From IMG/VR virus record IMGVR_UViG_3300017971_000421, positions 1-44,039 of that record: a DNA stretch of 44,039 bases; one strand, written 5' to 3'. This document shows, one piece after another, positions 10,118 to 29,023 of this stretch. Both the position numbers and the translations under genes were made by a program. Position 1 is the stretch's first letter. Every line of letters starts with the position of its first letter. The notes beneath the pieces were generated by a model. The model was not told the DNA's origin. It ran no database searches and saw nothing but the letters and a program-made list of their open reading frames with translations. Source of the stretch: a virus.

Positions 10118-10119
10118 TT

Positions 10120-11976
10120 ATGGCTAATGGTATTACACGATATGATACACCGGCTCAATTGGAGTTGGAGTTGTTAAATACTTATGTACCAATTCCTTTT
10201 GAACAAATGGTTGCTGCTAGTCAGCTTAAACGGCAGCAGTATGAACAGACAGCAGCTTCTTTGGACCAAAAGATTGCAGAAGCAGCTGAATTAAAAGCTA
10301 TACCAAATTCTATTGATGAGGATTACTTATCTAATGTCCGTAGAAATTTATCTGATATTGTAGATAGGTTTTCAGATCAAGATTTAGGGAGTCCAGTTAT
10401 AAGGCGACAGCTTAATGCGGAAATACGTAGGACTATAGATCCAGAGAGAATAAATAGGATACAGTCAAGTTACACAAATTATTTGGCTAGCCAAAAAGCT
10501 AAAGCTCAATTGAAATCGCGTGGATTGTATAATGAAATGCTGGAAGGTGTTACGGATCCTGCTTTAATGGGGAGATATGATACTAGTACTATGGGTACTT
10601 ATGAGTATTTGCCTAGTGCATATGAAGATCCAACTCAAGCCATGCGTACTTATTTTACGGATATCCAAGAGAGAATATTGCCAACCAGTGAAATGTCTCC
10701 AGAAGCTAAAGCTAAAAGTGCCGAAGGCTTTACTATAATGGGTATAACAGATAAAGATATAGATCGTGTGATTGAAGAAGAATGGCGTGATTTTGCTGAT
10801 ACTGTTATTGGTCAACGTGAATGGAAATTATATAAGTTACGTAACCCTGATTGGCAAGAAAAAGGAATAACGAAAGAACAGGCAATAAAGGGTATGCTTC
10901 GCGATATAGGGGAACGTTTTAAAGCAGAGGATGTTACAGGTCAAAGATATCCTGCGGGTCGCAAATCTGAAGATGATGATTATGTGAGACCAGAAATTTC
11001 AGAAACACCATTGTGGAGTTTGTCGGGTCAAGGTCCAACTAGCAGACAAATACGTAGAAACATTCCTACTATTGCAGAGCTGACGGGGGCTAAGACTACT
11101 GGTGGAGTTAGTAGGTTTTTGAGAAAAGTAGGAAAATTTGGAGATCCAGATTTTGACAAAGCTCAATTTGAAGCTGAGGAGTTAGCTCGATCGATTCGTG
11201 GAGACGATGAAGCCATGCAAAGATATGGTAAAATAAAAGATCAAGCAGTTGAGTATTTTGGGGCCAACGAATTTAAAGGTTTGAATGAAATTGAAGAGTA
11301 TGAAAAGGTCCAACAATATGTCGAGGAGTTTTACACCAGTGGATTCTCTGTACCTGTTCGTACACTTCCTGTTACAAAACAGCAGCGTGAAACCCAGAAT
11401 ACTTTTTTTGCAGAAGATCAGGAAGGTAATGTTGCTGCGGTAAACAGAGAATTTTATGATCCTATTGATCCATTTACTCAGACTATGGGTTTTGAAGAAT
11501 TATTGGGAGAATATCCAATGGATCAATATCAATGGAATATTATTGGTAGTTTGGGGAATAATAATCCTGTATTTCCAGGTGGCAGGCAAGTTGGTATATT
11601 TAAGGTTGATAACAAGGGAAATTTAGTTGGTGAAGCTAAAACAGTATATATGTCTCCAGATAAAATAGAGGCGAGTGAAAATCGTTTTCCGTGGAAAGTT
11701 CATCAAGCTAATTATCAGCTATCGGATACATATGAAGTAGAAGATGAATTTGTTATGCCAAGCGGTGAGCGAGTTCCAATAAAAGGAGTTATTGAAAGGT
11801 CGGATAAGAAGATTAATGGAGCTAGACATTCGGCGTTCATTGCTAGATTTAAGTTTCAAGGTGAGAATGGTCCTGTTACAATAAATGTTGGTAGTAAAGA
11901 AAATCCTGTGAGGACTACTGAAGATATACTTAAGGGTTTATTATTAGAATTACGTAGTCATCTTGGTATAGAATAA
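10120..11976 (+). CDS. Conserved virion protein upstream of the virion RNA polymerase
   Basis: 618 residues. The N-terminus contains RYDTPAQLELELLNTYVPIP followed by FEQMVAASQLKRQQYEQTAA. This looks like the conserved opening of crAss-like proteins encoded just before the RNA polymerase polyprotein. Residues ~30-140 are predicted coiled coil. The middle has alternating helical blocks with many charged residues, and residues ~420-618 are more beta-rich (VGIFKVDNKGNLVGEAKTVY). No catalytic motif was found. It could be a further cargo protein or an accessory RNAP subunit; I cannot distinguish these. It is followed after 13 nt (AT-rich, no Shine-Dalgarno) by the giant gene, so co-transcription is likely. 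Confidence 0.55.
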   Translation: MANGITRYDTPAQLELELLNTYVPIPFEQMVAASQLKRQQYEQTAASLDQKIAEAAELKAIPNSIDEDYLSNVRRNLSDIVDRFSDQDLGSPVIRRQLNAEIRRTIDPERINRIQSSYTNYLASQKAKAQLKSRGLYNEMLEGVTDPALMGRYDTSTMGTYEYLPSAYEDPTQAMRTYFTDIQERILPTSEMSPEAKAKSAEGFTIMGITDKDIDRVIEEEWRDFADTVIGQREWKLYKLRNPDWQEKGITKEQAIKGMLRDIGERFKAEDVTGQRYPAGRKSEDDDYVRPEISETPLWSLSGQGPTSRQIRRNIPTIAELTGAKTTGGVSRFLRKVGKFGDPDFDKAQFEAEELARSIRGDDEAMQRYGKIKDQAVEYFGANEFKGLNEIEEYEKVQQYVEEFYTSGFSVPVRTLPVTKQQRETQNTFFAEDQEGNVAAVNREFYDPIDPFTQTMGFEELLGEYPMDQYQWNIIGSLGNNNPVFPGGRQVGIFKVDNKGNLVGEAKTVYMSPDKIEASENRFPWKVHQANYQLSDTYEVEDEFVMPSGERVPIKGVIERSDKKINGARHSAFIARFKFQGENGPVTINVGSKENPVRTTEDILKGLLLELRSHLGIE

Positions 11977-11989
11977 TAAATATTTTATT

Positions 11990-14900
11990 ATGGCTCAATT
12001 TGATCCCCTTACGGGGTTAACAATAGAGGATGAGCCGCAACAGTCCTATGAAGAAAGATTAAATCAATCATTATTAGGTACGAATTATTTCGGAGTTCCG
12101 TCAACTGTAAGTGGCGGTGATTTTATCACTTCTAAGTACGATCAAGATTTATATCGATTTGAAGATCAGTACGCTCAAAGGGCTAGAGAACAATCGAAAT
12201 GGGCACAGCTTGGTAACATGCTTAATCAAGCTATTGTCGGTGAGATTATAGGCGGTACAATAGAAGGTGTAGGTTACCTTTTAGATTTTGAACAGTACGG
12301 CAATTTAATTGAAGGTACTGAACAAGAATTTGGCAACTGGTTTAGTGATTTAGGTCGAGGACTTAAAACGTGGACTCAGGAAGTAACCCCCATCTATACA
12401 GATTACAAGCCTGGGTCGTTTGCTCCAGGCAATTTTAGTTGGTGGATGTCTAATGCTCCATCGGTAGCATCAACATTAAGTTTGATGATACCTTCGGTTG
12501 GAGCAGTTAGTGGGTTAAGTGCTTTGGCTAAAGGTGCTGGTATAGCTGCTAAAATGGGTAAAGCTGCTAGATGGGCTGGTAGAGGTCTTACTCAAGCTTT
12601 CATGTCTCGTCACATGGAAAATATAATGGAAGCTGCCCAGACCTATGAAGAAACTGAAAAATTATCTATTGCTGCAGGTAAAAGCGCAGAGGAGGCTCGG
12701 CAGTTAGCTGCTATTGCTGCATCTGATTCCTATAATAGGAATTGGGTTATGATAGCTCAGGATATTCCTCAATATCTATTATTGGGTCGAGCATTTGGTA
12801 AAGCTAGTAGTCCAGCTACTGTTGAAGTAGGTAAACGTTTGGGTTACGATTTACTTCCTATTGTTGGCAAAAAAGCTGCTGCTATAGGTTGGGACATGCT
12901 TGGTGAATTTGGTGAAGAAGCATACCAATATGTAACAGCTGAAGAGTCAAAATATTTAGTACAGAGAATGTTAAATCCAGAGTTGGATTCATCGTTTGGG
13001 GATCGTATGCGTGAATACATACGTGACGGTGAATTGTGGACTGCTGGATTTTTTGGTGCTTTAGGTGCTGGTGCCATGCAAACTGCTGGTCGTGCAATTA
13101 ATGATGCTATAGCTGGCACCGGACATTCAGCTAGTGCTAGACGTGTTGCCGCTATAAACACTTTTGCCCCACTTGTCAAGTACTGGAATAATCAAGTTAG
13201 GGAAGCTGAAGATAGGGGAGATGTTGAAGCATCAGCTGATGCAAAATTAGGTTTAGTTTCGTCTTTGGCTGGTCAAGCAGTTATGATTGGTGGTCTTGGT
13301 GATGCTATTAATTTTGTTGAAACTATCACCAAAGAGGGTGGTCCTACTCAAGAAGATTTGGATAGGTTTGGTTTAACTGAGGAAGACGCCAAAACTATGC
13401 GTGATAATTTTCCAGATGTAGCTAGACATTTGCAAGAGATAGGGTCACTATATGATACAAATATTAAGAAATTTGATTCTGATATTGCAGCTGTTTTATC
13501 CAGTGGAGAATTTATAAGGAAACAACTTGATAACCGTCGATCTGACCTTGAAAGTCAAATTGAACAGCAAAAAGGTGAAATTGTAAATTATAATCGGGTA
13601 TCAAATATTAAACGTCAGTTACTGGAAAATGAGGCTAGAATTCGGTCACGGAAGAAATTTATAAAATCATCTGAAGAACGTTTAAAAAAAGACCCAAATC
13701 TAAAGGATAATGAAAAGGGCCAAGCGGATATTGAAAATCAAATACGTGTTGCTCAATTAGAGTTAGACGATTTTGATAAACTTAAAAAAGAGCTTGATGA
13801 ACATTATACCGCTGAAGAAAAAGCAAAAGATGCAAAATATCCTATTAAAGGTGCTGAATTAGATAAGTTAATTGATTTAGAAGGACGTTTAGGTAATACT
13901 GAATTTGCTATTCGTTCTTATGAGCGCCAGATGGATATGCTGGAACGGGGTCAAAAAGCCCGTCGAGCTAGAATAAAGGAGGAGCCTGAACCTCCTGTAG
14001 TTCCAAAACCTCCTACTACTGAAGAAGAAATACCTACGGCTGAAGTAGAAACGACTGAAGACAAAGCTCAGGAAACTAAAAAGCGGCAGAAAGATCGTAA
14101 AACCGAAATAAAGGAAACAACTGCTGCTGAAGATAAAGTACCTGATAAAAGGTTCGTTAACATAAACAGTAGAGATTTACAGGTTAGCGATTTAACCACA
14201 GCTGGTCCTACACAGTTTATAGGTTTTCTTAGGGGGGAACCTGGTATATTTTATAGTGAAGAAGGCCAACTTAAATTCAAGGATAATAAAACTAATACTG
14301 AAACTATTGTTGATGAGGAAACGTCGACTAAAACTCTACGTGCTCATGGGGCTGAATTAGCTAAATATTCCCTGTTTAACGTTGGTATAAATGCTAAAGG
14401 CGAAAATATTGTTATTACTATTGGTTCGCAAGATTTTACGATACCTATTGTTGAACCGTATAGTGCCATAAAAGAACGTAATAATTTAGCTGAATCAGTT
14501 ACATTGAAACGAGCAGATGGAAAGTCTGTTACGTTTACAGCAGTTCCATTAGTTGAAGAGTTATCTTCTACCTTAGTATTGTTTGATGTCGCTAAAAATG
14601 CAGTTATACGCAAATATTTTCAAATTGATGAGAATAAGGGGGCAAGGGCTAAGGACCCCAAAACTCAGAAAGAGTATCAAGTTTATAGGCGGGAAGATCG
14701 TTGGGTTGTAGTTGACATTGAAACAAATAAAACGTTACCTGCCGATGATGATATAACTAAACGAGTTATGTCAGCAGTTAATGCAGATTTACTTAGTTTG
14801 ATTGAATTTGGTCTGCAACATGTTGCTGATATATCCAATAAGGAGGAATTAAGAAATGAAATTAGAAAACTTGTTGATAACATTACCCCAGCAACTCCAG

Positions 14901-17900
14901 AGCAAACTAACAGGAGTACCGATGTCTCAAAGGTATCAGATTCTAAGGGAGTACCAGAGGAAACAACTGAACAGACAGCTGAATCCGTTGAACGCGGCAA
15001 GCAAGTTGAAGACAAAGCAATAGATGAGTTTGCTGAAGAGCGGTCTAAAGAGGAAGTAGCCGCTGAAATGGCTGAAGAGGAAACAGCTGAAGAACCACAA
15101 ACTATACAAGGTCGATCAACTGTTGTGGAGCCATTAGGGCCCTCAGAATCAATTCAAAGGGATGGGCAGTACTATGACACCACTGAAGACCAAAGACACG
15201 TCAGTGACTCTAAAAACATCGTTTTTGGGCTTCCTGATTCGTTTGTAGCTAGGTGGAGTCCAAAATTTCAAGAGGATCTCAATAAAGTATTGTCAAATCC
15301 TGAAACAGACATAGATAACTTTTCTGCTGAAGTTGAAATTGGGGTGTTTAATGAAACTAATAAGACATTTACAGTTGAAGCAGTTAAAGATAATTTATCT
15401 GATGAAGAGATTGCCAAATTGGATATGCGTATTACACTTCGTGATGCGGAAAATAAAGTTGTATCAAATGATATTTATGTTCCTATAGCTGGTGATCGTA
15501 TTGCTGATGACCAAGAACGGGCACATTTGCTTGAACATCGTAAACAAATTGTATCAAATGCTTTAAAAAATCAACCAAATATATTTAAGGTAAGACGAAC
15601 GGCTGGTGAACCACATAACACTGGTACTAATCAAAATATACTTAAATTTCTTACTAGTGTTGGCAAAGAGCTAACTGATGTTGATTTTGCATATGGTGAT
15701 AGTAACCGTATACCAAGAAGTTTACATGGTCTAGAAGATAACCTATCCCATAGGAGCCCATTACAACTTGGACCGGGTGATATAGCTATGTTGCATAATG
15801 CGACACCTAGTGGTGATTATGTTGCCAGCAAATTAAATCCTGCTAAACTTGGTCGCGAGTATGCTCAGGTGTTGTGGAAAGCTTTTCAAACTGCTGCAAA
15901 GAAAAAAAGTGTTAAAGCTAGATATGAAGGTAAGGAGGTTACTGGTGGCTTAACGTGTCATCAAGTTATTAATACTTTAACTTTTGTGGGTCCAGCAACC
16001 AAAAAGAGTGTTGAAAATGGGGCCACTTACTTAGCTAATAAAGTTGTTGCGTATGATTACAATAAAGGCAACCCATTTGTAGAATACAGTTTTGATACCA
16101 GAGATGGTTCAACCAAAAAAGTTTATATTAATAAAGCTACTGATTCTGAAATTAACGATTTTATTAATTATATTGCTAATAATAAGAATTTCTCGGTTGA
16201 TTTCAGTTCATTAGAAAATATAGTTGAAATACCATTTACTATATTAGGTAAAAAGTTTGAAAAAGGACAAACTGTATTACATGAATATTTAAAGAATGAT
16301 TGGCTACAAACAGATCTTGGGACATTTTCTGGTAATTCTGCTTATAAATCTCCATTGTTGATTGTTGACATAGGACAGCGAGTTGAAAAACCAATTGTTG
16401 AACCTGAAAGAGCTGAAAAAGAACCTGTATTTTATCAAGACGATATTGTTGGCAAAACTGTTGAATACAAGGGAAACGAATGGAAAGTTATTTCCGCTAA
16501 TCCCATATTTGAAGAGTATGATGCAGAAAAAGAATATTTAAGTGCTGCGGAAAGTGGAGAACAGGATATGGCTGGAGCTGAAGCGGCTTTTATGGATCCG
16601 GAAGAACTTGAACGTCTTGAAGAAGAAAGAGCTAAACGTGAGGAAGAAAAAAAGGCAGAAAAAGCTGATTTTCAAGTTGTATTAGAAAGGTATATAGAAG
16701 TTAAGGGCACTAAAAAACGAGAAGAAATTGCAATTGATAATTCTGCTGGGAATAAAGCTGCTTTTAATGCTGCAAAAATTATTGGTGAAGAGCCGGGAGA
16801 AGAACCAGGAGAGAGTTTTGAAGATATATTTGATGATGGTATACCGCTTAGACACAGATCAATTGTAAAAAATGTTCAAGAAAAAATTGATCTCACCGAA
16901 GAACTTGGTTGGTTACGCGAAAAATTAGGTAATGTCAGTGTTTTACAATTCAATGAAGTTGTTCGTATGGCCATTGAAAAGGGGAAGGACATATTTGGTG
17001 CTTTTTACAATGGTTCTATCGTACTTTTGTCGGACAGCGCTAAAGGTACTGTATATCATGAGGCTTTTCATAAAGTTTTTGGTGATTTTTTAACTGCGAA
17101 ACAACAGCAAAGGGTACTAAAAGAAGTACGAACCCGTTATTCTGATGAACTAGCAGCACAATATGGAGACAAAGAATTAACGGATAGAAGAGTTGAAGAT
17201 TTTCTTGCTGAGCGATTTAGTGAATTCGTAGCAAGTGATGGTGAAATCAAACCTGCAGGTCCACAAGCTAGGAATTGGTTCCAGAAATTACTCGATTTTA
17301 TAAAGGCTATAGTTCAGTTTAATAGATCCGAAATTGATAAGTTGTTCGATGCAATACAACGAGGTGATTTTAGGAATAGGGCTGAAACATTTACTAGTGA
17401 AGAGCAAAAAACAATTGTACAAAATCTGGCATATTTACTTTTGACTACCAATAATGTTGATAAATTTGATAATATAAAAGAATTAGATTATGGTTTGGTT
17501 CGTGAGCATCTTAAAAATCGATTAGAAAAATTTCATAAATATGCGGCTAAAGAGGAAAATGTAAAAGAAAATCCAGATAAGGTTATTAAAGCTACAAAAT
17601 TGATTGACGTTTATGAGCGTATACTTATGGAATTCGATCAATTTATAGGTATGACTGATGATTATTTGGGTACGTTTAATATAACTAGAAAAGATGGTGA
17701 TTTAGTTTATAAAAAACGTGAACAAGATTTTGTTGGAGATAACGAGGACGAGTCAATAGATAATGAATTTGAAAGATTTGAAAAAGCTCCATATGAAGTT
17801 TCGGCTAAAGACAATGCTTTAACTGAAATAAAATTATTGTTAGCAACACTCCCACATGGTGAAATAACTAAAACTGGTGCACATAAGGGATTACTTGATC

Positions 17901-20900
17901 CCCTTACGGGCATGCGTAAATTTGTTGATTTCAATACTATGTGGGCTGATATCATACGATTAGTACATGATGCACCCACCATTGAGGAGATGATTAGTCG
18001 ACTTGAAGAGAAAGCTGTAACTTCTCTGCCCTATCATGTCTTGCTAAATGGTTTAGAGAAAACAAACAGACTAGGTTTAAAAACTGGTCCCGATTCGTTG
18101 CGTATTAAGTTTTTTGTAACTATGCGCAAACATTACAATGATTTTATTGATTTTAGATATACAACAAATCAACGTGGTGACGTTGTTAATGCCGCTGCAA
18201 GAAGTTCATTTGTTAGGACTGAAGCTAGTAAGTACTTGAATATATGGTCACAGGAAATGTTGACCAACAGTCAGTTGTTTAATAAAACAACAACTGCACC
18301 TAATAAAGATTTTGCCTTTAGGTTGCTGGATAAGTACAAACAATTATTAAGAGATGTAAGAAAAGAATATCACGGTAAATTACCAAATAAGGACACATAT
18401 GAAGATTTAAAATGGCGTATAATTGGGTTATATAATAATATAGGTATACCGCTTGATTCTGAAACGTTAGATGGATATTTTGAAAATATGAGGGGATCCT
18501 CGCAGCAAAAATTACATGATTTTGTTGTTAAAAAGGGACATATGATTGGTATATTTGGTGTTGATAGTTTAATCTCCAAATTAGCCAAAGGTCAACAGGT
18601 TGCCAGAGGACAAGATATACTTCCCCCAGAAAAATATTTATCTAACGAAAGTAATGTACGCGGACTTGCAAGAGCATATGCCAATGCGCGACCTAGTGTA
18701 TCGGAGAGTGCTGTTTTAGGCCCCGGAGGTAATATACATTTTACTTATTCTATGCCTTCACCTATTACAGATTTTATTAGTAAGCTTAAAAGTAGCCCCA
18801 AATTTGTTGACCAATTATCCTCTGTTTTGTTTAATCAAAATTCACAGTATTTAAAACAAGTACGAGAAGGAGCTGAATTAGGTGTACACACATTTAGTGT
18901 ATTTACTGAAGAAAATGTTGGAGACACTGGTCGTGGATATCTTGAAATTACAGACTTGGAAGATTTTATATTTAAACTTTCATTTGTAATGGATGATGTT
19001 ATTCCACTTCCAACACTAGCTGACAGAAAAAGTTTTTATGCTTGGACTGGATTAAAGAAAATTAATTTTATAGGTAAAACTACAATTGAAAAAAATAAAT
19101 TACGCATACCACAAGAAATAATTGATATATTTGAGGGATATAAACGTGATGAGATAAATACCTCTAGAGAGGCTAGACGTGCAGTTGATGAGGCTATAGA
19201 AACAGAGGATTACAGTAAATTAGTTGAGGGATACCATTATAAGGTTGGAAAAAATGGTTTGCCCATCTATAAACAAAATGGACAATATACTGGTACTGCA
19301 ACAAATAAATTTAGACATTTTGACAGGGGTACATCTATTACTCAATTAATACAAAATGCCATAGATGACACTTTTGAATATGCTAAAGAATTAGGTGTCA
19401 TAAGTGAAACTAATGGTATTGTTTTAAATAGACATTTGCCCAAAAGACTGATTGATTCTGTCAAAGAAGAATTTAAAACTGATGATGACCAAATTGCCAT
19501 ACGTGCATTGATTGCCGAATTTACAGTTAATACAATGATGTCAACTATAGAAGCTGAAAAATTGCTTGTTGGTGACGCGGCTTTTTATAAAATTGATGAG
19601 AAAAAGGGAACTGTACACGATGATCGTGTTAAAAGGATTGGTGTAGTTGCAGCTGCTGGTGATAAAGTTGCCTCAAATATTTCAAATCCGCAAGATCCAT
19701 CTCTACGCAGAAATAAATATACAACTGTAACTTTTAATACGCAAAACTATGTAAGTAAATTTTATGATGAGCTAGTTGAAAAACATACTGCTAGATATAA
19801 AGAATTGGGTTTTGAAGATAGCGTAGCGTCAGCTATGGCTAAGACAAAACTTGCTGGTTATAAAGAAGTTGATCAAACTGATGCCCAAGTTTATATATCG
19901 CCCGAAATGTATAGGCAAATCAGTATGCGGTTAGGGGAATGGTCTGATGAAAAACAAGAAGCATTTGAACTTCTTGAAAGTGACAAAGAATTAACAACTG
20001 AAGAAGAGATTAGAACTTTAAATGTTGTTATGCAGCCATTAAAGCTAGTTTATTTCAATTTACATTTTGAAAATGGCTTAGCTATACCTGTTTATGATAA
20101 AATGTCATTAGCCACTGTGTTTAAAAAAGTGGCAAAAGGCACACAGTTAGAACCAATGTATAACCGTATGACCGACAAAAAACGGCCGTTAGATATGGTT
20201 AAATTTGATTCTGCTGTAAAAGCTGGCAATAGACAACAAATTAATTATTTTAAACGAACACAAGAAGGAGAAGATGTAGTAGATGAGTCGGCTTTACACA
20301 ATTCTATAGTATACGAGCAATTTTTTGATGGGCTGTATAGACAAGTTGTCACTGATCCACATGAAATTAAACGACAATTGCTTGGTACTCAAATGAAGAA
20401 AGTTTCTATCTCAAATATAGTACTTGGCGGAGAATATGTATTAGGTGGCAAAAAAGTTAAAGGTTCAGATGTTGTTGATGCTGCAAATAAGGCATTAAGA
20501 AACTTGTCCAATCGTGGAAAACGTAAATTGTTAGAGCGGCTAGGTGTTAATGAAGACGACCCACAAATACGTGATCCGGAGAATTTGGTTACGATGTTAC
20601 GTAGAGAAGCCAAATTGGCTGGAATGCCTGATAATATAGTAGATGCTTTATATGTAGATGAAAATGGCGAATTATATGTAGAATTTGATGCTCTACCAGA
20701 TCGCATGTGGATAGAAAATAGACTGATGTCAATAATTTCCAAGAATACGGTAGACGTGAAAACTGCTGGTGGTGGGTTTATACAAATGTCTAATTTCGGT
20801 TTAAAAAAGGTTAATGCTTTGAAAACCAGTGAACTGAAATTCTACAATGATGAGGGCAAAATGGAAATTATGGTTTCCGTTGGATTATTCAGAGATGTTA

Positions 20901-23900
20901 TACCCGGTTATAAAGAGGGTAAAGTTACATTTGAACAAGCTCGAAAATGGTTAAAAGAAAATCTTGACGGTATTGGTTATAGGATACCCACACAAGGATT
21001 AAATTCTGTTATACCTTTCACAGTAAAAGAATTTTTACCTGAAAATGTAGGAGACACTGTAGTACTTCCAGCTGAATTTACTAGACTTACTGGTTCTGAT
21101 TTTGATATTGACAAATTGTTTATAGCGCGATATAATTATAGAATTACTTTAAATAACGAAATCCAACGAATTAAATTTATTGATGTTGACACATCTTCTA
21201 AAGAAGGTTTAACTGAACTTTATCATGAGCGTTATGATAGAACAAAAAATCTACTTGAAAAAATGGATCGGGTTATCATAGAAGCCGAACGTGATTTTGA
21301 AGAAGATTTAGAACGAAAAGGAGGTGATCCTGAAGTTGTTAGTTTGATTACCGCTATGATGGGGGAAATGCCAGAATATTTTAGTGATGCTGAACTTGAT
21401 GAAATTCTACAAGAATATAATGGCAGATTTACTTTAAAACTTTATAATGAAATAAAAGAACGAGTTGAGAAAATTCCTACTTTAGAAGAATTTATCAAAG
21501 AAAATCATGGGAAGGATATATATGATTTAAATAACAGACTAGCAGTTGAGAACAGATTGTTAGATGCTTTTACAGCTGTTACTACTAGTCCATTACATCT
21601 AATTGATAATACAACACCACTTGGTGTTCACACGGGGACACTTAAAGATATATCTGAAGTTGTTAAAAAAGCTGAAGGTAAAGATATTAAGTTGCGTGCT
21701 TTAATGGGTACAACGCCTAGATTCCAGTCAGAAACAAAATCTAGATTTACCGATAGTATGGGTGGTATTGGTCCATTTGCATTAAATAATGTACACCATT
21801 CTCTTGGTCAAATTGTTAAATTAGGTTTGAAAAGTGCAAATGTATTACCGGGTTTAATTCACTATGATGAAGAAAATTCTGTTATAGATTTGTCACAAGT
21901 GCGTGATGTTGATAAAAGAGTTGCAATACTTAGTTGGTTATCCGCATTTATTGATGCTCATGTGGATGCAGCTAAGGATCCTTATATTACTGATCTTAAT
22001 ATTGGTCCGGCTACTTATAATGTCGCCAACTTGTTATTAAGAGCTGGTGCTGGTGCGGAATTTGTTGGGTATTTATTATCACAACCGATTATAAAAGAAT
22101 ACGCTAAATTACGAAGTAGGTATGACGGGAATATTGGTGGAAATCCGAATGCTAATATAAATAAAATAGTTAGGAAAAAATATTGGGCAAATACCAGTAA
22201 ATCTGCAGTGGAGAATGTAGACGTTAAGTCGTTGTTAACGCCTTCTGGTCTCATGAAATTGTTGAGTGCACCTAAAAATAGTGATTGGTATGCTAAACAA
22301 ATTGCATTGTCACGATTTTTTACGGAATTAAATAGTTTATCGTTCTCATTGAATGAAGCAGTTCAGGCAAGTCAAATTGATACCAAGCGTTATGGTTCTA
22401 ACATTGTACAAGTTAGAGCGTTTATGAATCGATTTAATAGGGTCATAGAATCTGATCTTGTATATAATTTTGACAAACTTATTAATGAATCGTTTTTAGG
22501 TACATTATTAGAGAATAGTGTAGATTTGGCTCAGGATATGCTTCGCAATCTCACTATATCATCTACAGATAAGTTTGATGATATGATGAATTCGTTGCTG
22601 TTACAAACTGGTAAGAAATATAGTAGTGACGATAAGTTAATCAATAGATATGCAAATATACTGCATGCAACTATTATAAGTGAATATTTCACTAGTCCAA
22701 AAGGCATGGGATTGACAGCTGATATTGTTAAACGTATGTTTTTTGGCAAGAAAAGTTTAGCTAGATGGATACACGCAATTCAACGCGGTAAAACGTTTCC
22801 ACATTTACAAAATAATCTGTTTATACAATCACTTACGCCTGTTTTATCCGATAAAAAAGAGATTCCTGATACTTTGCAAATGTTAAGTTTTGGTAAATTG
22901 GATAGATGGAGCAAAAATAGTCTTTCAAATGCTTGGTTAGATTTGTTTAATGATAATTCTAAAGATAGCGAGAAGATTCGTAGGTTAGCTATGAACCTTA
23001 TGGCATATAGTTTTATTATATCTGGACGTAGATTTGGACTTAATGCTTTTCACCAATTTTTACCTATCGATGCTGCTAAACAAATTCCACAACATATCGA
23101 CGAAGCTATTTCATTTAGTGATGGTGTCAAGCAAATTAAAGAGGAATTACAGGAAGGCGAACGTGATATTGATATATTACGTGAATTGTATCTTAATAAT
23201 TGGCCCGATGATTCTCTAGTTCCATCTGTATCTCCAGTTGCAACAAAAATTGCTGTAGAACCAAAAACAAATAAATCCTTAAATTACCCCTATTTATTTA
23301 CTGTTGCTGGTAATTCGTCTTGGTATGGTACTAACCATAAAGGACAACCTTTGTATCAACCATTTGTTAAAATACGTAATAATAAATATGGGTGGTTAAT
23401 AGGTGAATATATTGGTTATCGTGTTGATAACGAAGATAATGTCTTACCAGTTTATAAAGTTGTTAATAAGAAGGGATATTTTACTAGAAATATAAAAGTT
23501 TATGAATATAATCTAGATACATCATTTGAAACAGAGAACAATTTACCACGATTGTTGTCAGAAGCAAAAGAACCGGAAGTTATTAAACTTAAGGGATATG
23601 AAAATTTTCAACATGTTCCTAAAGAGGATCGGATAGCAAATTACTATAATCCTGTACAAGTATCAGAAAAACGTCTTGAACAACCTGTCAGTATTTCTGT
23701 AAAGAAAAAGATGACCATGACTTTTGCTGGTCAATTTGATAATGTAATATCCGGTAAAAAAACCCAAACTACCAGGCAAAATAGAAATAATTACAAAGTG
23801 GGAGACGTGGTGACTATTGTAAGTGATGATAATCGATCTGTCAGAGCTAGAGTAACATACGTTGAACCAGTAAATATTGAACAAATACATGCTTTACCGG

Positions 23901-26900
23901 CAACTGATTCCTATTTTACTCTTGAAGGTAGGGACAAAGAATATTTTGTAAAAAACACTCAGTATCTTAAAGGAAAATCTAATGTTGTTAAAATAGGGTT
24001 TGAATTGCTTGATGAAAGTGTTGTATCACAAGAACCGGAACAGGGTAAATTATTTGAAATTCCGGTGGATACTTCGAAATTTGTAAATGTGTATGCTGGT
24101 GCAGGAGAAAATTTTGAATTATCTAATTTAGCTTGGAGACCGTTTAATTTAAGGGGGGGACAAACAATTGCTATGACCCATCTTGATGAATTACTAGACA
24201 AAATAAAAAAAATGTTTCCACATTTACAAAATAATCTGTTTATACAATCAATTGACGATGTACCTGAAGTATTAAACGAAATATTTAACATTCAATTTCC
24301 CGGTGAGAAAGCTAGAGGACACGATATATATGATATAAGGTTTACGTCGGTTGAACAATTTTTTCAGGCTATGAAATTTCAGTGGTCCACTATGTCAGAT
24401 CCTAAAAATAAGGAACTGTTAAGACAAATTATGACTACTAAGAAAACTGGTGAAATTAAGAAATTAGGTAGACAATTTACTTTAGAAGAGCAGGCTGATT
24501 GGAATGAGGTTGCTTTTGATCTCATGAAATTTGCTGTGTATGAATCATTTAATCAAAATATAGAAGCGAAAGATAAATTATTAGCTACGGGTAGTAAAAA
24601 AATAACACATGTACAGGATAAAACTAGATGGAAAGAGGATTTTCCCGAAATTTTAGAGGAGGTACGATTTAGGTTAGCCAGAGATTTGGGTCCATACAGT
24701 AAATTACCAATACCAATAGATTATGAACAACGTATAGGTGCTCCACAAAAGGAAACTAGCCGATTAAAAGAAATACTAGCATTACTTAATAAACAAGATC
24801 TTTCGCCAGAAGAGCGTCAAGGACTTGAAGAAGAATTGCATGATCTTTACTATAAAGATCCGACTGAACGTGTAACTATCGCTGAAAAAAGAGCAGCTAG
24901 AGAAACTAAAGAAAAACCTAGTAGAGGTGTAACCAAAGAATCCATTATTAAGTATCTTAGAGATACTGAAGCTATGAACACAAAAGAATTTAAGGGTTTC
25001 GATAATTGGATTAAAATTGGTCGGGATAGATCCGCATTACCAGCTAGTCGCAGGGTTATATTTAAACTTAATAAAAAATATGAAAAATATGGTAAATTAA
25101 TTACATTGATACCACGCAATGATTCATGGCTAATACAAATTAATCAAGATGTTATTGACAAGCTCAATGCACGTGAACAACGTGTCACAAAGGGTGAGCC
25201 TTTAACTAGAGCTGAATTTGAAGAGCAACGACAAATATTGCAAAAAACTTTTCCAGGTGTCAGAATTGTTGAGGATTTTACATTAGATATCCCCGGAAAA
25301 TTAATGTCAGGTGGAGAAGAAATTCATGTAAATCCAGTTTATTGGTTACGTGATACATTAGGTCACGAATTTGGTCATTTGCTTATTGACCTTATTGGTG
25401 GTGTTAACAATAGATTGGTAAGACAGGGATTGCGTTTCCTGGATGGGACTGATTTACAAAAAGATGTTTATAATAAGTATTCAGATCTTATAGAACGTGG
25501 AGAATTTGATAGAGTTCAAAAAGAAGTTCTTGCCCAAGCTGTTGGTTTAGAAGCAGCTAAAATTTTTAAAGAAGAATTTGAAATGGGTCGTTGGGAACGG
25601 TGGCTTGTACGGTTCTTCAGACGTATAAGACAATTGTTGGGTATTGAGTCTTCAGCTGTACGTAAATTAGCTAAAACTCTTGTTCGTGGTACACCAGTAA
25701 AAGCTGAGGATTTACATGGACAACCCTCTACTTATGAGCAAGAGCAACGTATTGATCCAAAGGAAGCGGAAGATGTCCTTAAGTTGGAAGAGGAGCCAGA
25801 AACTGATCTCAATAAAATACGTAAGAAAGCTATCGAAGCCTTAGAGAAAAAAATTGGTATTTACCAACAGAGAGGTAAGAAGGCTGCAGTTGAAGCCATT
25901 GAAAAAGGTCTCAATGAAGTACAAGAAGGGGATAATCCATATCGATCTATACGAAGGTTTATTGAAGTTGCTAGACGGCAAACGAATAGTGTTATACAAG
26001 ACATACATAGATTTGAATCAGAAGCTGGTCTAGGCATTGAAGAAGATCCGTTTAATGCTGATCGTTTGTCTAAGTGGAAAGATTATGTTGCTGCCTATGC
26101 CAATGTATTATATGATATTAGAAATGCATTAATTGAACTTAAAAATGCACCAATTGAAGTTGGGGATAAATTTAGGAAAGGCAGAGATATTCGCATGCAA
26201 GCTAGAATTGAAGAAATTGATGAGATTTTAGCAAATAAAACATTTATTGAGAGACTGTATGTGCGAAAAGGTGTTAACATAGTTTCTAAATTTTTAGCAC
26301 CATATTCTACTAGAATTGCTGGGGAATACAAAGAAGCGCTTGAAAGGCGGTGGAATAGACTTAGTAAAAAAGAGAAAGAAGAAACACCATTAGAAGAATA
26401 CCAAGCTAAATATCTTGCTGCAAATGATGAACAAATAAAACTTAAAACTGAAGAATCGATACGCAAAGAGTTGTTAAAAGCTGAATGGGATATTAATTTT
26501 TTGGGCCGGTGGTTAGACAACTTGCTTGATTCACCTGATCTTGTTGTTCAAGCAATGGTTAAAAAATTTAGTTTAACTGATGAACAATCTAGATATGAAT
26601 CAATAGGTGCACGTAACCGTATAGTTGCAGCTAAGAAAAAGCTTGAAAAATTTCTGGGTAGTATGGCGGATCAAACTAAGTTCTATGGTTTTATGCTAGA
26701 ACGCGATAAAAAAACTGGTTTGTTGACGCAACATTATGTAACACCTTATCTTAGTTCAATGTGGGACGAATATAACGATAAAGTTACTGAATGGACCAAT
26801 GACCCGGATATTAGTGATCTAGCTTTACGTGCTAAAAAAGAGAGCTGGATTAATGAAAATTATGGTCGTTCAAAAAAAGATAAAATTGCTTATAACAAAG

Positions 26901-29023
26901 CTCGTGCTGAATATTTACGGAAAATGAAAGAAGAAGGGCAGTTAACTGATGCTGAGTGGGCTGTAATTGATTCCTGGGAAGCCAATCGGAATTCTCGTTA
27001 TAGTTTTGTATTGCGTGAACATGTACGAGAAGAAACTGCCGAAAAATATTTTGAATTCTTAGATACTTCTAGATGGGAATACAGAACACCGGCAGAACGA
27101 TGGAGAAATCCACAATGGAAAAAATTGTTAGAAATAGCTGATATTGATCCACAATTAACAGAAACTGAACAACGTGAATTATTAAAACTTAATGAAAATA
27201 AAGATCCAAGAATTGAATTTTATAACTTAATTGTTGAATTATCTGAAGAAGCAGATAAGATGTTGCCATATAGATTTAGGCTCCGTGGAAAATTACCAGC
27301 TATTGCGGCGAAATTGGGTGAACGTGTGCTCCGCAAACAAAAACCCAGCACTATTGCTAGGGAAGAGACTAGGCTAGGATTAGTAAAAAGACCTGAAGAT
27401 ATTGAAAAGGGTCAACTTGATATTACTAATGAAGCTGGAGATCCTATAAACTTTGTACCTATTTTTTATACTTATGATATCGAACCACAAAATCAATCAT
27501 ATGATATAGCTACAATCTATCAGAGATATTGGTCTATGGCTCGGGATTACTCACTAAAGAGTGAAATTTTACCGGAAATGGAAATGGCTAAGTATTTCGT
27601 AGAAAATAGAGAAGTACTACGTCGAGATGAAAGAGGCAATATTATAAAAGATGGTCTTAGTAGAATTGGGGATCGAATGTTAACTAAAAAAGGAGTGCAA
27701 TCATTTGTATCACAACAATTAGGAGATTGGTTCAAGTCAATTATCTATGGTCAAAGAGTAAGAGATGAAGGAGTTTTACCATTGTTTGGTGCAAATGTTG
27801 ATATTGCTAAAGGCGCTGACCTACTTAACCGGTATACATCATTCAACTTGCTAGGTCTTAATATGGTACAGGGAGTAGCTAACGTATTGCTCGGTGAAAC
27901 AATGCAGTGGGCTGAAGCTTTTGGTGGCGAATACTATGGTGTAAAAGATTTTGTTAAAGCAGGAGTATATTATACAAAAAATCTCCCGGGTATATTAGGA
28001 GATATTGGCGAAAGAGTGCCAACTAATATTATTTCTCTAATAAACGAAGAATTCAATACATTAAATGAATATGAAAATGGCGAATATAGAAAAAATTCTA
28101 AGTTCCAACAATTGATGTCATCTAATACCCTCTTTTTTACTACTCACGCTGGTGAACATTTAATGCAAACTAGAGTTGTACTAGCTATGCTTAATCGCAT
28201 GCGAGCTAAAGATAAGAATGGTAAAGATATGGGTACTATGTTAGACAATTTAACTATTGGTAAAGACGGCAGACTCGATGTTAAAGAAGGTGTGGCTAAT
28301 TTTGGACGAGAAAAAAGAGCAAAATTTGGACTGCAAGCACGTAGAATCTTATCAGCAATGCATGGGGAATATTCGAGGAATGGTATGGCAGCTGTCCAAA
28401 GATATGCCTTGGGACGACTTGGTATAATGTTTAGGAAATTTGTTGTACCAGGGTTTAAACGCAGATATGCCAAGAAAAAGTATAATGAATTGCTTGAAGG
28501 TTGGACTGAAGGTAATTATAGAACTACGGGTAGATTTTTCAGGAATCTTATGAAAGATTTGCGCATATTTAGATTGGCCGCTTGGTCAGAAGAATGGACA
28601 GACCTTACTCGCATGGAAAAAGGTAACATAAGAAAAACCATGGCAGAAGTGGTATTCCTTGCAACTGTTATAATAATGTCAACTATATTTATTGGGAAAA
28701 TGGAAGGAGAGGACGATGATGAGGAATGGTTGTGGTCATTTATGGCTTATCAAGCTCTTAGATTACGTACCGAGTTGTTATTCTTTTCACCTAAATTAAA
28801 TGAAGCTCTTAGGATATTACGGTCACCAGCTGCTAGCATGTCCGTTGTAGAGAACATAATTAATTTAACTAGTCAAATGTTTGATCCATTTGAAAGGTAC
28901 GAAAGGGGAAATTGGAAAGGTAAACCTAAAATTACAAAAACTATGATAAATTTTGTACCTGGTGTTAGACAAGTGTATAGAATGAAATATGTAAATGACC
29001 AAATAAGCTGGTTCCGCAATTAA
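11990..29023 (+). CDS. Giant crAss-like virion RNA polymerase polyprotein with protease, ASCH and NADAR modules (5,677 aa)
   Basis: This single frame takes up 39% of the window. The N-terminal ~400 residues contain hydrophobic Gly/Ala helices, then coiled coil (~500-660) and Pro/Glu-rich acidic linkers (~660-715 and ~965-1050). An HEAFH zinc-protease motif lies at 1690-1694. The polymerase signature is DFDID at 3037-3041, preceded by GYRIPTQ (2996-3002), like the RxPT...DFDGD region of cellular RNAP and the motif of phage phi14:2 gp66. An ASCH-like domain (~3905-4005) contains ISGKKTQTTRQ and YKVGDVV. A NADAR-like domain (~4030-4235) contains FELSNLAWRPF, FTSVEQFFQAMKF and DKLLATGSKKITH. A second zincin motif, HEFGH, is at 4459-4463. 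The C-terminus is helical, with one likely membrane span (~5550-5572). In known relatives the enzyme is packaged and transcribes early genes after entry. Whether it is cleaved is unknown. Confidence 0.88.
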   Translation: MAQFDPLTGLTIEDEPQQSYEERLNQSLLGTNYFGVPSTVSGGDFITSKYDQDLYRFEDQYAQRAREQSKWAQLGNMLNQAIVGEIIGGTIEGVGYLLDFEQYGNLIEGTEQEFGNWFSDLGRGLKTWTQEVTPIYTDYKPGSFAPGNFSWWMSNAPSVASTLSLMIPSVGAVSGLSALAKGAGIAAKMGKAARWAGRGLTQAFMSRHMENIMEAAQTYEETEKLSIAAGKSAEEARQLAAIAASDSYNRNWVMIAQDIPQYLLLGRAFGKASSPATVEVGKRLGYDLLPIVGKKAAAIGWDMLGEFGEEAYQYVTAEESKYLVQRMLNPELDSSFGDRMREYIRDGELWTAGFFGALGAGAMQTAGRAINDAIAGTGHSASARRVAAINTFAPLVKYWNNQVREAEDRGDVEASADAKLGLVSSLAGQAVMIGGLGDAINFVETITKEGGPTQEDLDRFGLTEEDAKTMRDNFPDVARHLQEIGSLYDTNIKKFDSDIAAVLSSGEFIRKQLDNRRSDLESQIEQQKGEIVNYNRVSNIKRQLLENEARIRSRKKFIKSSEERLKKDPNLKDNEKGQADIENQIRVAQLELDDFDKLKKELDEHYTAEEKAKDAKYPIKGAELDKLIDLEGRLGNTEFAIRSYERQMDMLERGQKARRARIKEEPEPPVVPKPPTTEEEIPTAEVETTEDKAQETKKRQKDRKTEIKETTAAEDKVPDKRFVNINSRDLQVSDLTTAGPTQFIGFLRGEPGIFYSEEGQLKFKDNKTNTETIVDEETSTKTLRAHGAELAKYSLFNVGINAKGENIVITIGSQDFTIPIVEPYSAIKERNNLAESVTLKRADGKSVTFTAVPLVEELSSTLVLFDVAKNAVIRKYFQIDENKGARAKDPKTQKEYQVYRREDRWVVVDIETNKTLPADDDITKRVMSAVNADLLSLIEFGLQHVADISNKEELRNEIRKLVDNITPATPEQTNRSTDVSKVSDSKGVPEETTEQTAESVERGKQVEDKAIDEFAEERSKEEVAAEMAEEETAEEPQTIQGRSTVVEPLGPSESIQRDGQYYDTTEDQRHVSDSKNIVFGLPDSFVARWSPKFQEDLNKVLSNPETDIDNFSAEVEIGVFNETNKTFTVEAVKDNLSDEEIAKLDMRITLRDAENKVVSNDIYVPIAGDRIADDQERAHLLEHRKQIVSNALKNQPNIFKVRRTAGEPHNTGTNQNILKFLTSVGKELTDVDFAYGDSNRIPRSLHGLEDNLSHRSPLQLGPGDIAMLHNATPSGDYVASKLNPAKLGREYAQVLWKAFQTAAKKKSVKARYEGKEVTGGLTCHQVINTLTFVGPATKKSVENGATYLANKVVAYDYNKGNPFVEYSFDTRDGSTKKVYINKATDSEINDFINYIANNKNFSVDFSSLENIVEIPFTILGKKFEKGQTVLHEYLKNDWLQTDLGTFSGNSAYKSPLLIVDIGQRVEKPIVEPERAEKEPVFYQDDIVGKTVEYKGNEWKVISANPIFEEYDAEKEYLSAAESGEQDMAGAEAAFMDPEELERLEEERAKREEEKKAEKADFQVVLERYIEVKGTKKREEIAIDNSAGNKAAFNAAKIIGEEPGEEPGESFEDIFDDGIPLRHRSIVKNVQEKIDLTEELGWLREKLGNVSVLQFNEVVRMAIEKGKDIFGAFYNGSIVLLSDSAKGTVYHEAFHKVFGDFLTAKQQQRVLKEVRTRYSDELAAQYGDKELTDRRVEDFLAERFSEFVASDGEIKPAGPQARNWFQKLLDFIKAIVQFNRSEIDKLFDAIQRGDFRNRAETFTSEEQKTIVQNLAYLLLTTNNVDKFDNIKELDYGLVREHLKNRLEKFHKYAAKEENVKENPDKVIKATKLIDVYERILMEFDQFIGMTDDYLGTFNITRKDGDLVYKKREQDFVGDNEDESIDNEFERFEKAPYEVSAKDNALTEIKLLLATLPHGEITKTGAHKGLLDPLTGMRKFVDFNTMWADIIRLVHDAPTIEEMISRLEEKAVTSLPYHVLLNGLEKTNRLGLKTGPDSLRIKFFVTMRKHYNDFIDFRYTTNQRGDVVNAAARSSFVRTEASKYLNIWSQEMLTNSQLFNKTTTAPNKDFAFRLLDKYKQLLRDVRKEYHGKLPNKDTYEDLKWRIIGLYNNIGIPLDSETLDGYFENMRGSSQQKLHDFVVKKGHMIGIFGVDSLISKLAKGQQVARGQDILPPEKYLSNESNVRGLARAYANARPSVSESAVLGPGGNIHFTYSMPSPITDFISKLKSSPKFVDQLSSVLFNQNSQYLKQVREGAELGVHTFSVFTEENVGDTGRGYLEITDLEDFIFKLSFVMDDVIPLPTLADRKSFYAWTGLKKINFIGKTTIEKNKLRIPQEIIDIFEGYKRDEINTSREARRAVDEAIETEDYSKLVEGYHYKVGKNGLPIYKQNGQYTGTATNKFRHFDRGTSITQLIQNAIDDTFEYAKELGVISETNGIVLNRHLPKRLIDSVKEEFKTDDDQIAIRALIAEFTVNTMMSTIEAEKLLVGDAAFYKIDEKKGTVHDDRVKRIGVVAAAGDKVASNISNPQDPSLRRNKYTTVTFNTQNYVSKFYDELVEKHTARYKELGFEDSVASAMAKTKLAGYKEVDQTDAQVYISPEMYRQISMRLGEWSDEKQEAFELLESDKELTTEEEIRTLNVVMQPLKLVYFNLHFENGLAIPVYDKMSLATVFKKVAKGTQLEPMYNRMTDKKRPLDMVKFDSAVKAGNRQQINYFKRTQEGEDVVDESALHNSIVYEQFFDGLYRQVVTDPHEIKRQLLGTQMKKVSISNIVLGGEYVLGGKKVKGSDVVDAANKALRNLSNRGKRKLLERLGVNEDDPQIRDPENLVTMLRREAKLAGMPDNIVDALYVDENGELYVEFDALPDRMWIENRLMSIISKNTVDVKTAGGGFIQMSNFGLKKVNALKTSELKFYNDEGKMEIMVSVGLFRDVIPGYKEGKVTFEQARKWLKENLDGIGYRIPTQGLNSVIPFTVKEFLPENVGDTVVLPAEFTRLTGSDFDIDKLFIARYNYRITLNNEIQRIKFIDVDTSSKEGLTELYHERYDRTKNLLEKMDRVIIEAERDFEEDLERKGGDPEVVSLITAMMGEMPEYFSDAELDEILQEYNGRFTLKLYNEIKERVEKIPTLEEFIKENHGKDIYDLNNRLAVENRLLDAFTAVTTSPLHLIDNTTPLGVHTGTLKDISEVVKKAEGKDIKLRALMGTTPRFQSETKSRFTDSMGGIGPFALNNVHHSLGQIVKLGLKSANVLPGLIHYDEENSVIDLSQVRDVDKRVAILSWLSAFIDAHVDAAKDPYITDLNIGPATYNVANLLLRAGAGAEFVGYLLSQPIIKEYAKLRSRYDGNIGGNPNANINKIVRKKYWANTSKSAVENVDVKSLLTPSGLMKLLSAPKNSDWYAKQIALSRFFTELNSLSFSLNEAVQASQIDTKRYGSNIVQVRAFMNRFNRVIESDLVYNFDKLINESFLGTLLENSVDLAQDMLRNLTISSTDKFDDMMNSLLLQTGKKYSSDDKLINRYANILHATIISEYFTSPKGMGLTADIVKRMFFGKKSLARWIHAIQRGKTFPHLQNNLFIQSLTPVLSDKKEIPDTLQMLSFGKLDRWSKNSLSNAWLDLFNDNSKDSEKIRRLAMNLMAYSFIISGRRFGLNAFHQFLPIDAAKQIPQHIDEAISFSDGVKQIKEELQEGERDIDILRELYLNNWPDDSLVPSVSPVATKIAVEPKTNKSLNYPYLFTVAGNSSWYGTNHKGQPLYQPFVKIRNNKYGWLIGEYIGYRVDNEDNVLPVYKVVNKKGYFTRNIKVYEYNLDTSFETENNLPRLLSEAKEPEVIKLKGYENFQHVPKEDRIANYYNPVQVSEKRLEQPVSISVKKKMTMTFAGQFDNVISGKKTQTTRQNRNNYKVGDVVTIVSDDNRSVRARVTYVEPVNIEQIHALPATDSYFTLEGRDKEYFVKNTQYLKGKSNVVKIGFELLDESVVSQEPEQGKLFEIPVDTSKFVNVYAGAGENFELSNLAWRPFNLRGGQTIAMTHLDELLDKIKKMFPHLQNNLFIQSIDDVPEVLNEIFNIQFPGEKARGHDIYDIRFTSVEQFFQAMKFQWSTMSDPKNKELLRQIMTTKKTGEIKKLGRQFTLEEQADWNEVAFDLMKFAVYESFNQNIEAKDKLLATGSKKITHVQDKTRWKEDFPEILEEVRFRLARDLGPYSKLPIPIDYEQRIGAPQKETSRLKEILALLNKQDLSPEERQGLEEELHDLYYKDPTERVTIAEKRAARETKEKPSRGVTKESIIKYLRDTEAMNTKEFKGFDNWIKIGRDRSALPASRRVIFKLNKKYEKYGKLITLIPRNDSWLIQINQDVIDKLNAREQRVTKGEPLTRAEFEEQRQILQKTFPGVRIVEDFTLDIPGKLMSGGEEIHVNPVYWLRDTLGHEFGHLLIDLIGGVNNRLVRQGLRFLDGTDLQKDVYNKYSDLIERGEFDRVQKEVLAQAVGLEAAKIFKEEFEMGRWERWLVRFFRRIRQLLGIESSAVRKLAKTLVRGTPVKAEDLHGQPSTYEQEQRIDPKEAEDVLKLEEEPETDLNKIRKKAIEALEKKIGIYQQRGKKAAVEAIEKGLNEVQEGDNPYRSIRRFIEVARRQTNSVIQDIHRFESEAGLGIEEDPFNADRLSKWKDYVAAYANVLYDIRNALIELKNAPIEVGDKFRKGRDIRMQARIEEIDEILANKTFIERLYVRKGVNIVSKFLAPYSTRIAGEYKEALERRWNRLSKKEKEETPLEEYQAKYLAANDEQIKLKTEESIRKELLKAEWDINFLGRWLDNLLDSPDLVVQAMVKKFSLTDEQSRYESIGARNRIVAAKKKLEKFLGSMADQTKFYGFMLERDKKTGLLTQHYVTPYLSSMWDEYNDKVTEWTNDPDISDLALRAKKESWINENYGRSKKDKIAYNKARAEYLRKMKEEGQLTDAEWAVIDSWEANRNSRYSFVLREHVREETAEKYFEFLDTSRWEYRTPAERWRNPQWKKLLEIADIDPQLTETEQRELLKLNENKDPRIEFYNLIVELSEEADKMLPYRFRLRGKLPAIAAKLGERVLRKQKPSTIAREETRLGLVKRPEDIEKGQLDITNEAGDPINFVPIFYTYDIEPQNQSYDIATIYQRYWSMARDYSLKSEILPEMEMAKYFVENREVLRRDERGNIIKDGLSRIGDRMLTKKGVQSFVSQQLGDWFKSIIYGQRVRDEGVLPLFGANVDIAKGADLLNRYTSFNLLGLNMVQGVANVLLGETMQWAEAFGGEYYGVKDFVKAGVYYTKNLPGILGDIGERVPTNIISLINEEFNTLNEYENGEYRKNSKFQQLMSSNTLFFTTHAGEHLMQTRVVLAMLNRMRAKDKNGKDMGTMLDNLTIGKDGRLDVKEGVANFGREKRAKFGLQARRILSAMHGEYSRNGMAAVQRYALGRLGIMFRKFVVPGFKRRYAKKKYNELLEGWTEGNYRTTGRFFRNLMKDLRIFRLAAWSEEWTDLTRMEKGNIRKTMAEVVFLATVIIMSTIFIGKMEGEDDDEEWLWSFMAYQALRLRTELLFFSPKLNEALRILRSPAASMSVVENIINLTSQMFDPFERYERGNWKGKPKITKTMINFVPGVRQVYRMKYVNDQISWFRN
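22795..22831 (+). repeat. 37-nt direct repeat, copy 1 (RNAP C-terminal region)
   Basis: Identical base for base to 24214-24250, in the same frame, encoding FPHLQNNLFIQS. The copies start 1,419 nt (473 codons) apart. This copy lies in a context that looks native to the RNAP (RGKTFPHLQNNLFIQSLTPV). Confidence 0.95.
24214..24250 (+). repeat. 37-nt direct repeat, copy 2 (inside the NADAR-like domain)
   Basis: Second exact copy of 22795-22831. It sits in a ~60-residue insertion between the LSNLAWRPFNL and FTSVEQFF elements of the NADAR-like fold, so it is likely the derived copy. Confidence 0.95.

Follow-up and report, generated by a model that had tools for sequence, protein, structure and literature searches.

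The giant gene and its carrier domains

The window, by which we mean the whole 44,039-base stretch of one virus record analyzed here, is an incomplete contig that carries a giant open reading frame (ORF) on the forward strand. This ORF fuses the homologues of three proteins of Cellulophaga phage phi14:2, and its main parts outside the NADAR domain are listed below.

11990–29023, forward strand: giant ORF of 5,677 amino acids, the fused homologues of phi14:2 g067, g066, and g065 in that order
17057–17071, forward strand: first HExxH motif, HEAFH, residues 1690–1694, zincin-like (read from the sequence, no Pfam match)
20000–22700, forward strand: stretch of the virion RNA polymerase core, crAss type (tblastn match to phi14:2 g066)
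21098–21112, forward strand: catalytic DxDxD motif of the polymerase, DFDID, residues 3037–3041
23735–24007, forward strand: ASCH domain, residues 3916–4006, just upstream of NADAR (PF04266, 27.0 bits against a cut-off of 21.2, E=7e-6)
25364–25378, forward strand: second HExxH motif, HEFGH, residues 4459–4463, zincin-like (read from the sequence, no Pfam match)
25667–29020, forward strand: C-terminal part, residues 4560–5677, a gene of its own in most relatives and fused here

The original prediction, made from the letters alone, had placed a NADAR-like domain inside a virion RNA polymerase polyprotein. This carrier is right in kind, as judged by homology to phi14:2 g066 and the DxDxD motif, and its type, by that homology, appears to be crAss rather than N4. 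In a tblastn search, the stretch 20000–22700 matched phi14:2 g066, annotated as ‘Catalytic RNA polymerase subunit’ (E=2e-40, 96% of the query), as well as many crAss-like phages, and the upstream structural gene (1,537 amino acids) likewise matches Crassvirales. A T7/N4-like polymerase was considered and appears unlikely: we found no T7-like motif pattern and no Pfam or PHROGs polymerase match, and the homology is to the crAss type.

Aligning the giant protein to its relatives revealed that several of them conserve the residues before ~3880 and after ~4560, with a variable stretch in between. This variable stretch contains, in most relatives, a stop codon that splits the polymerase gene from the next gene; in the window, the two are fused. 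One polypeptide holds NADAR, ASCH, and two HExxH motifs, a possibly polyvalent-type combination that is presumably injected. The two HExxH motifs are possible self-processing proteases. A general pairing of ASCH with NADAR was rejected, as a Pfam ASCH domain adjoins NADAR in only 2 of 39 members; an AlphaFold run on ASCH plus NADAR gave poor confidence across ASCH. Scanning the window for Rfam families and tRNAs gave no hits.

Identity, fold, and boundaries of the NADAR domain

24080–24685, forward strand: NADAR domain, residues 4031–4232 (Pfam, PHROGs, PDB sequence matches, AlphaFold2/Foldseek)
24146–24340, forward strand: lineage-specific insert in the NADAR domain, residues 4053–4117 (~65 residues)

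The domain had been proposed from the order of five NADAR/YbiA-type motifs between 24079 and 24700. All five lie in the frame of ORF 11990–29023 and the region is correct, but position 24079 is one base out of codon phase, the in-phase limits being 24080–24685. The Pfam family PF08719 (NADAR) matches the giant ORF with 52.8 bits against a cut-off of 35.1 (E=7e-14), phrog_1017 matches the NADAR region with E=8.5e-15, and sequence matches in the PDB comprise 8bau (E=2.6e-6), a NADAR with ADP-ribose, and 2b3w (YbiA). The score against PF08010 is 22 bits, below the cut-off of 36. An AlphaFold2 model built from 39 sequences (the window and viral contigs) has a pLDDT of 78.6, with core blocks at 90–96, and a Foldseek search of the PDB returned a probability of 1.00 for 2b3w and 8bau only, all other entries scoring ≤0.04. 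Profile and structure searches thus agree on NADAR/YbiA, and the Pfam profile, the AlphaFold2 model, and Foldseek together rule out a chance motif match. On sequence and model, we take the domain to be a confirmed member of the NADAR family with a NADAR fold. It also contains a feature absent from the original prediction, namely the insert, located between RPF and FTSVE.

Active site

The key residues of NADAR proteins are E88 and K95 of the E. coli C7 NADAR (E43 and K50 in the oomycete protein) and the last-strand D171 (PMC11543638). Their counterparts in the window are as follows.

24353–24355, forward strand: Glu4122, equivalent to catalytic E88 (E. coli C7 NADAR) and E43 (P. nicotianae NADAR)
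24374–24376, forward strand: Lys4129, equivalent to K95 and K50 (phosphate coordination, essential)
24500–24502, forward strand: Trp4171, equivalent to the ADP-ribose-contacting W89 of P. nicotianae NADAR
24608–24610, forward strand: His4207, the last-strand charged residue

An enzyme of the kind first proposed should retain the family residues, and the window NADAR does (Glu4122, Lys4129, and His4207). The last-strand residue separates the families, being Glu in YbiA, Asp in DarT1-linked NADARs, and His in phage gp30.3 (PMC11125620); in the window NADAR, neither the Glu of the YbiA subfamily nor the Asp of the DarT1-associated, BC4488 type is present, and His occupies the position instead. 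We compared 61 distinct polymerase-linked NADARs (distinct meaning <95% alike), in which the Glu, the Lys, and the last-strand His are each found in 61/61. T4 gp30.3 has His at this position too, and stand-alone phage NADARs (L196–L210) have Glu. The window NADAR is accordingly predicted, from sequence and model, to be a catalytically competent enzyme of the His type, although the recently acquired insert with its copied polymerase sequence might impair it.

That copied sequence is a 37-nt exact repeat, present twice in the giant ORF.

22795–22831, forward strand: donor copy, in frame, in the polymerase segment, where the encoded motif is conserved in relatives
24214–24250, forward strand: second exact copy, in frame, inside the NADAR insert

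Both copies encode FPHLQNNLFIQS and are offset by 1,419 bp; no exact repeats of 37 nt are expected by chance in the window. Because the polymerase copy matches a motif that relatives conserve, the direction of copying was from the polymerase into the NADAR insert. The repeat also led us to consider misassembly, which was rejected on the grounds that a second record, possibly not an independent assembly, is 100% identical over 20.4 kb, both repeat copies included. This matching record and the many unrelated phages with the same polymerase–NADAR arrangement argue that the fusion is real.

Recurrence and position of the fusion

NADAR is a minority cargo of crAss-type polymerase chains: among records picked by their polymerase, it scored above the cut-off in 3 of 80, one of which is a copy of the window. 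Scanning viral contigs with five crAss NADAR seeds gave 46 loci, and a second seed gave 54; the two NADAR-seeded scans share 30 contigs and together hold ~70 distinct ones, from which the 61 distinct NADARs derive. Nearly all 61 sit within giant polymerase-chain proteins, and the DxDxD motif lies in the same ORF in 54, the remaining seven being explained by cut contigs, a split polymerase gene, or another chain protein. Since the seeds are crAss NADARs, the scan finds that clade by design, and these counts do not give the fused fraction among all phage NADARs. One locus, L185, is unresolved by motif search. The polymerase–NADAR arrangement is a recurrent one.

The position of NADAR along the chain varies. 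Relative to DxDxD, it is downstream in 47 of the 61, upstream in six, and within 200 residues in one, with no DxDxD in the ORF of the other seven. In L095, a polymerase HMM runs on either side of the NADAR (about 9740–10450), which indicates an insertion into the polymerase core, ~70 residues after the catalytic DxDxD.

In a phylogenetic tree with few cellular outgroups, stand-alone and cellular NADARs separate on a branch with 100% SH-aLRT support; T4 gp30.3 forms a long branch and is too divergent to place. A bacterial donor was sought and rejected, the genome scan yielding just two contigs, both metagenome-assembled and with giant ORFs of a phage-like kind. These two, L142 (Bacilli MAG) and L143 (Pseudomonadales MAG), are crAss-type NADAR giants in bacterial bins and probably represent mis-binned phage.

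Cassette exchange and the cargo slot

Pairwise distances of the polymerase core and of the NADAR are essentially uncorrelated over 52 sequences (Spearman rho 0.055). Two pairs of loci illustrate this at the DNA level. L096 and L157 are 97.7–98.6% identical over 17.5 kb, the NADAR core excepted, where one block of 60 columns has a protein identity of about 31% (L096 9947–10208); in the DNA alignment, the ends of the NADAR are near-identical (INIYAGTGENAELSN... and ...TGNA.LTHTQDKGKWGKEFP) and the interior is replaced. Conversely, L165 (10007–10453) and L166 have only 447 bp in common, at 92.6% identity and exactly covering the NADAR, in phages that are otherwise dissimilar. These sequence comparisons show NADAR behaving as a mobile cassette among related phages. 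An arms race would be expected to produce allele swapping below the level of the gene, though such swapping does not prove one.

Other cargo found in the variable tails of relatives includes RNase H, SLOG (cpYpsA, DprA), DUF7831, ART-PolyVal, AAA/zeta-type kinases, and PIF1-like helicases, and NADAR-bearing tails also show a 2OG-Fe(II) oxygenase and DUF1848. A cargo slot after the polymerase core is seen in the tails of L008, L011–L028, L059, L072, and L093–L135. In L068 and L074, a stretch early in the tail after the polymerase core (FKTAEQAFEFYKG...) looks like the Glu/Lys motif of NADAR, with no Pfam match, and is possibly a degenerate NADAR. L012 is another natural chain fusion, a single ORF of 6,767 amino acids with ART-PolyVal and a zeta-type kinase in its tail.

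Junction cysteines of the polymerase chain

We surveyed the cysteines of 123 distinct polymerase ORFs in related loci. A Cys lies within the last six residues in 112 of 114 closed polymerase ends and within the first ten residues of the following protein in 110 of 112, both junction cysteines occurring together in 109 of 112; at the C-terminal end of the protein that follows the polymerase, Cys is found in 7 of 91. In 13/13 cases with a C-terminal Cys in the large ORF before the polymerase, the polymerase itself begins with Cys. Internal Cys is rare in polymerase-chain proteins, at a frequency of 0.063% versus 1.18% in other ORFs of these loci. For instance, in phi14:2 (L138), the only Cys of g067 is its final residue, g066 carries two (residues 3 and 2179 of 2180), and g065 one (residue 3). 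In crAss001 (L137), gp47 has one (2339 of 2341), gp50 has Cys at 5, 1334, and 2404, and gp49 one (residue 5); gp47 is on the opposite strand despite its terminal Cys. Each of the two fused giants, in the window and in L012, has a single Cys; that of the window is at residue 1323, off the junction.

Possibly, then, the proteins of the polymerase chain are joined head-to-tail by disulfides into one threadable string for ejection, and we infer that the window replaces this linkage by gene fusion. A structural paper reports virion disulfides at other sites, not at these junction cysteines.

Comparison with known systems

T4 gp30.3 (PF08010/PF08719) resembles the window domain in its NADAR fold, catalytic Glu and Lys, and last-strand His, but it is a small, stand-alone, and very divergent protein, whereas the window domain is part of a virion polymerase chain. 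E. coli YbiA (2b3w) and the P. nicotianae NADAR (8bau) share the fold and the Glu/Lys pair and differ in having a last-strand Glu and in being cellular and stand-alone. The DarT1-linked NADAR antitoxin (E. coli C7 type) has the Glu/Lys equivalents E88 and K95; unlike the window domain, it carries a last-strand Asp and is encoded next to a DarT1 toxin gene. Beside the giant ORF, the PHROGs scan, which covered all but a few small ORFs, showed phage virion and replication genes and no DarT gene.

The carrier resembles the crAss-type virion RNA polymerase (phi14:2 g066; crAss001 gp49/gp50), with which it shares DxDxD homology, gene order, and, by extension, probable packaging. In the window, unlike phi14:2 or crAss001, three chain proteins form one polypeptide of 5,677 amino acids, in which NADAR and ASCH occupy what was once a gene junction. 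Polyvalent proteins (Iyer et al. 2017, PMC5512222) are similarly large, multidomain, and probably injected, with zincin motifs and ASCH plus an effector domain; the window differs in that the carrier is the catalytic virion RNA polymerase of Crassvirales, and NADAR goes unmentioned in that paper (PMC5512222). Phage NADARs are typically stand-alone according to a 2022 survey (PMC9503650). Full-text searches of the open-access literature found no paper on a NADAR–polymerase fusion in crAss-like phages; one crAss protein is already labeled DUF1768 in GenBank.

Delivery, mechanism, and target

Delivery of the NADAR with the genome, as originally proposed, is supported by homology. The proteins gp47, gp49, and gp50 of crAss001 were detected in virions by mass spectrometry (PMC10172136), and phi14:2 g065–g067 are annotated from virion MS/MS; we infer that the window's chain is likewise packaged and ejected. 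In the mechanism that we favor, the NADAR would be packaged in the virion as part of the crAss-type RNA polymerase chain and threaded into the host along with the polymerase, ahead of genome transcription. Inside the cell, it would cleave ADP-ribose off guanine bases in DNA or RNA, thereby undoing a host ADP-ribosyltransferase defense at entry. As hosts would differ in their ADP-ribosylation defenses, the module would be traded between phages as a cassette. The proposed counter-defense role gains only indirect support, from the cassette swapping seen in the sequences.

The link to DarT drawn in the original prediction has to be narrowed, with DarT2, which modifies thymidine, argued against and DarT1 not favored (PMC11125620). 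All NADARs assayed, T4 gp30.3 included, cleave guanosine-ADP-ribose in DNA and RNA, and none of those tested cleaves thymidine-ADP-ribose, the DarT2 product (PMC11125620, PMC11833690). Hydrolysis of guanine-ADP-ribose by the window NADAR would follow from this family biochemistry. T4 gp30.3 removes guanosine-ADP-ribose in vitro, yet cells were not rescued from DarT1 (PMC11125620), and it is a weaker enzyme than the DarT1-linked NADAR (PMC11125620, PMC11833690). Since this weaker enzyme with the same His does not rescue from DarT1, DarT1 itself may not be the target. Taken together, guanosine cleavage, the lack of thymidine cleavage, and the failure to rescue from DarT1 suggest that the target is a host transferase directed at guanine, whether in place of DarT1 or in addition to it. 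The best overall explanation, to which we assign slightly less than an even chance, is that the window encodes a predicted injected His-type guanine-ADP-ribosyl hydrolase that counters host ADP-ribosylation.

Soluble signals, the second option of the original prediction, are a serious, if unlikely, rival to a nucleic-acid target. The injected NADAR would then break down toxic NAD products or small immune signals derived from ADP-ribose, such as cyclic ADP-ribose variants. Iyer et al. 2022 hold that what phage NADARs encounter is mostly soluble derivatives of ADP-ribose (PMC9503650), and SLOG (cpYpsA, DprA), predicted to sense or process such derivatives (PMC9503650), occurs with DUF7831 in the same tail region of relatives. 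However, the NADARs tested act on guanosine-ADP-ribose in nucleic acid (PMC11125620, PMC11833690), and attachment to a polymerase, as well as insertion into its core in L095, suits a nucleic-acid substrate better. The substrate might instead be RNA, the NADAR guarding either the phage polymerase's own RNA or the host's tRNA/rRNA against an ADP-ribosyltransferase that targets RNA, as a repair step at entry. Of the hydrolases tested, only NADARs reverse the ADP-ribosylation of guanosine in RNA (PMC11833690), and some giants carry nucleic-acid cargo (ASCH, an AlkB-like 2OG-Fe(II) oxygenase, RNase H, helicases); but nothing direct favors RNA over DNA and the cargo list is mixed; we consider RNA repair quite unlikely.

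The remaining two rivals are both improbable, the latter marginally more so. An antidote to an ADP-ribosyltransferase of the phage itself or of a rival phage would account for ART-PolyVal in 3 of 37 scanned NADAR-bearing tails, and also in L012; most NADAR-bearing tails, however, lack a transferase by Pfam, which detected none in the window's giant either. Alternatively, NADAR could serve the polymerase chain as a structural or ligand-binding module without catalytic activity. Its varying position along the chain means that no special site is needed, but such a module is hard to reconcile with a catalytic Glu, Lys, and His invariant in 61/61 and with the swapping of core alleles.

Implications

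We put forward, as a speculative and rather doubtful generalization of the favored hydrolase explanation, that crAss-like phages eject their polymerase as one chain, held by junction disulfides or by fusion, with a swappable counter-defense slot, and that otherwise unrelated phages trade a dedicated clade of His-type NADAR erasers of guanine-ADP-ribose through this slot, at a scale below the gene, keeping pace with the ADP-ribosylating defenses of their hosts. The junction cysteines provide a simple testable model for the ordered ejection of several giant cargo proteins, and L096/L157 a natural allele panel for mapping substrate specificity. A NADAR eraser that is part of an injected polymerase and is swapped between near-identical phages would amount to genomic evidence that these phages face ADP-ribosylation defenses in the first minutes of infection.
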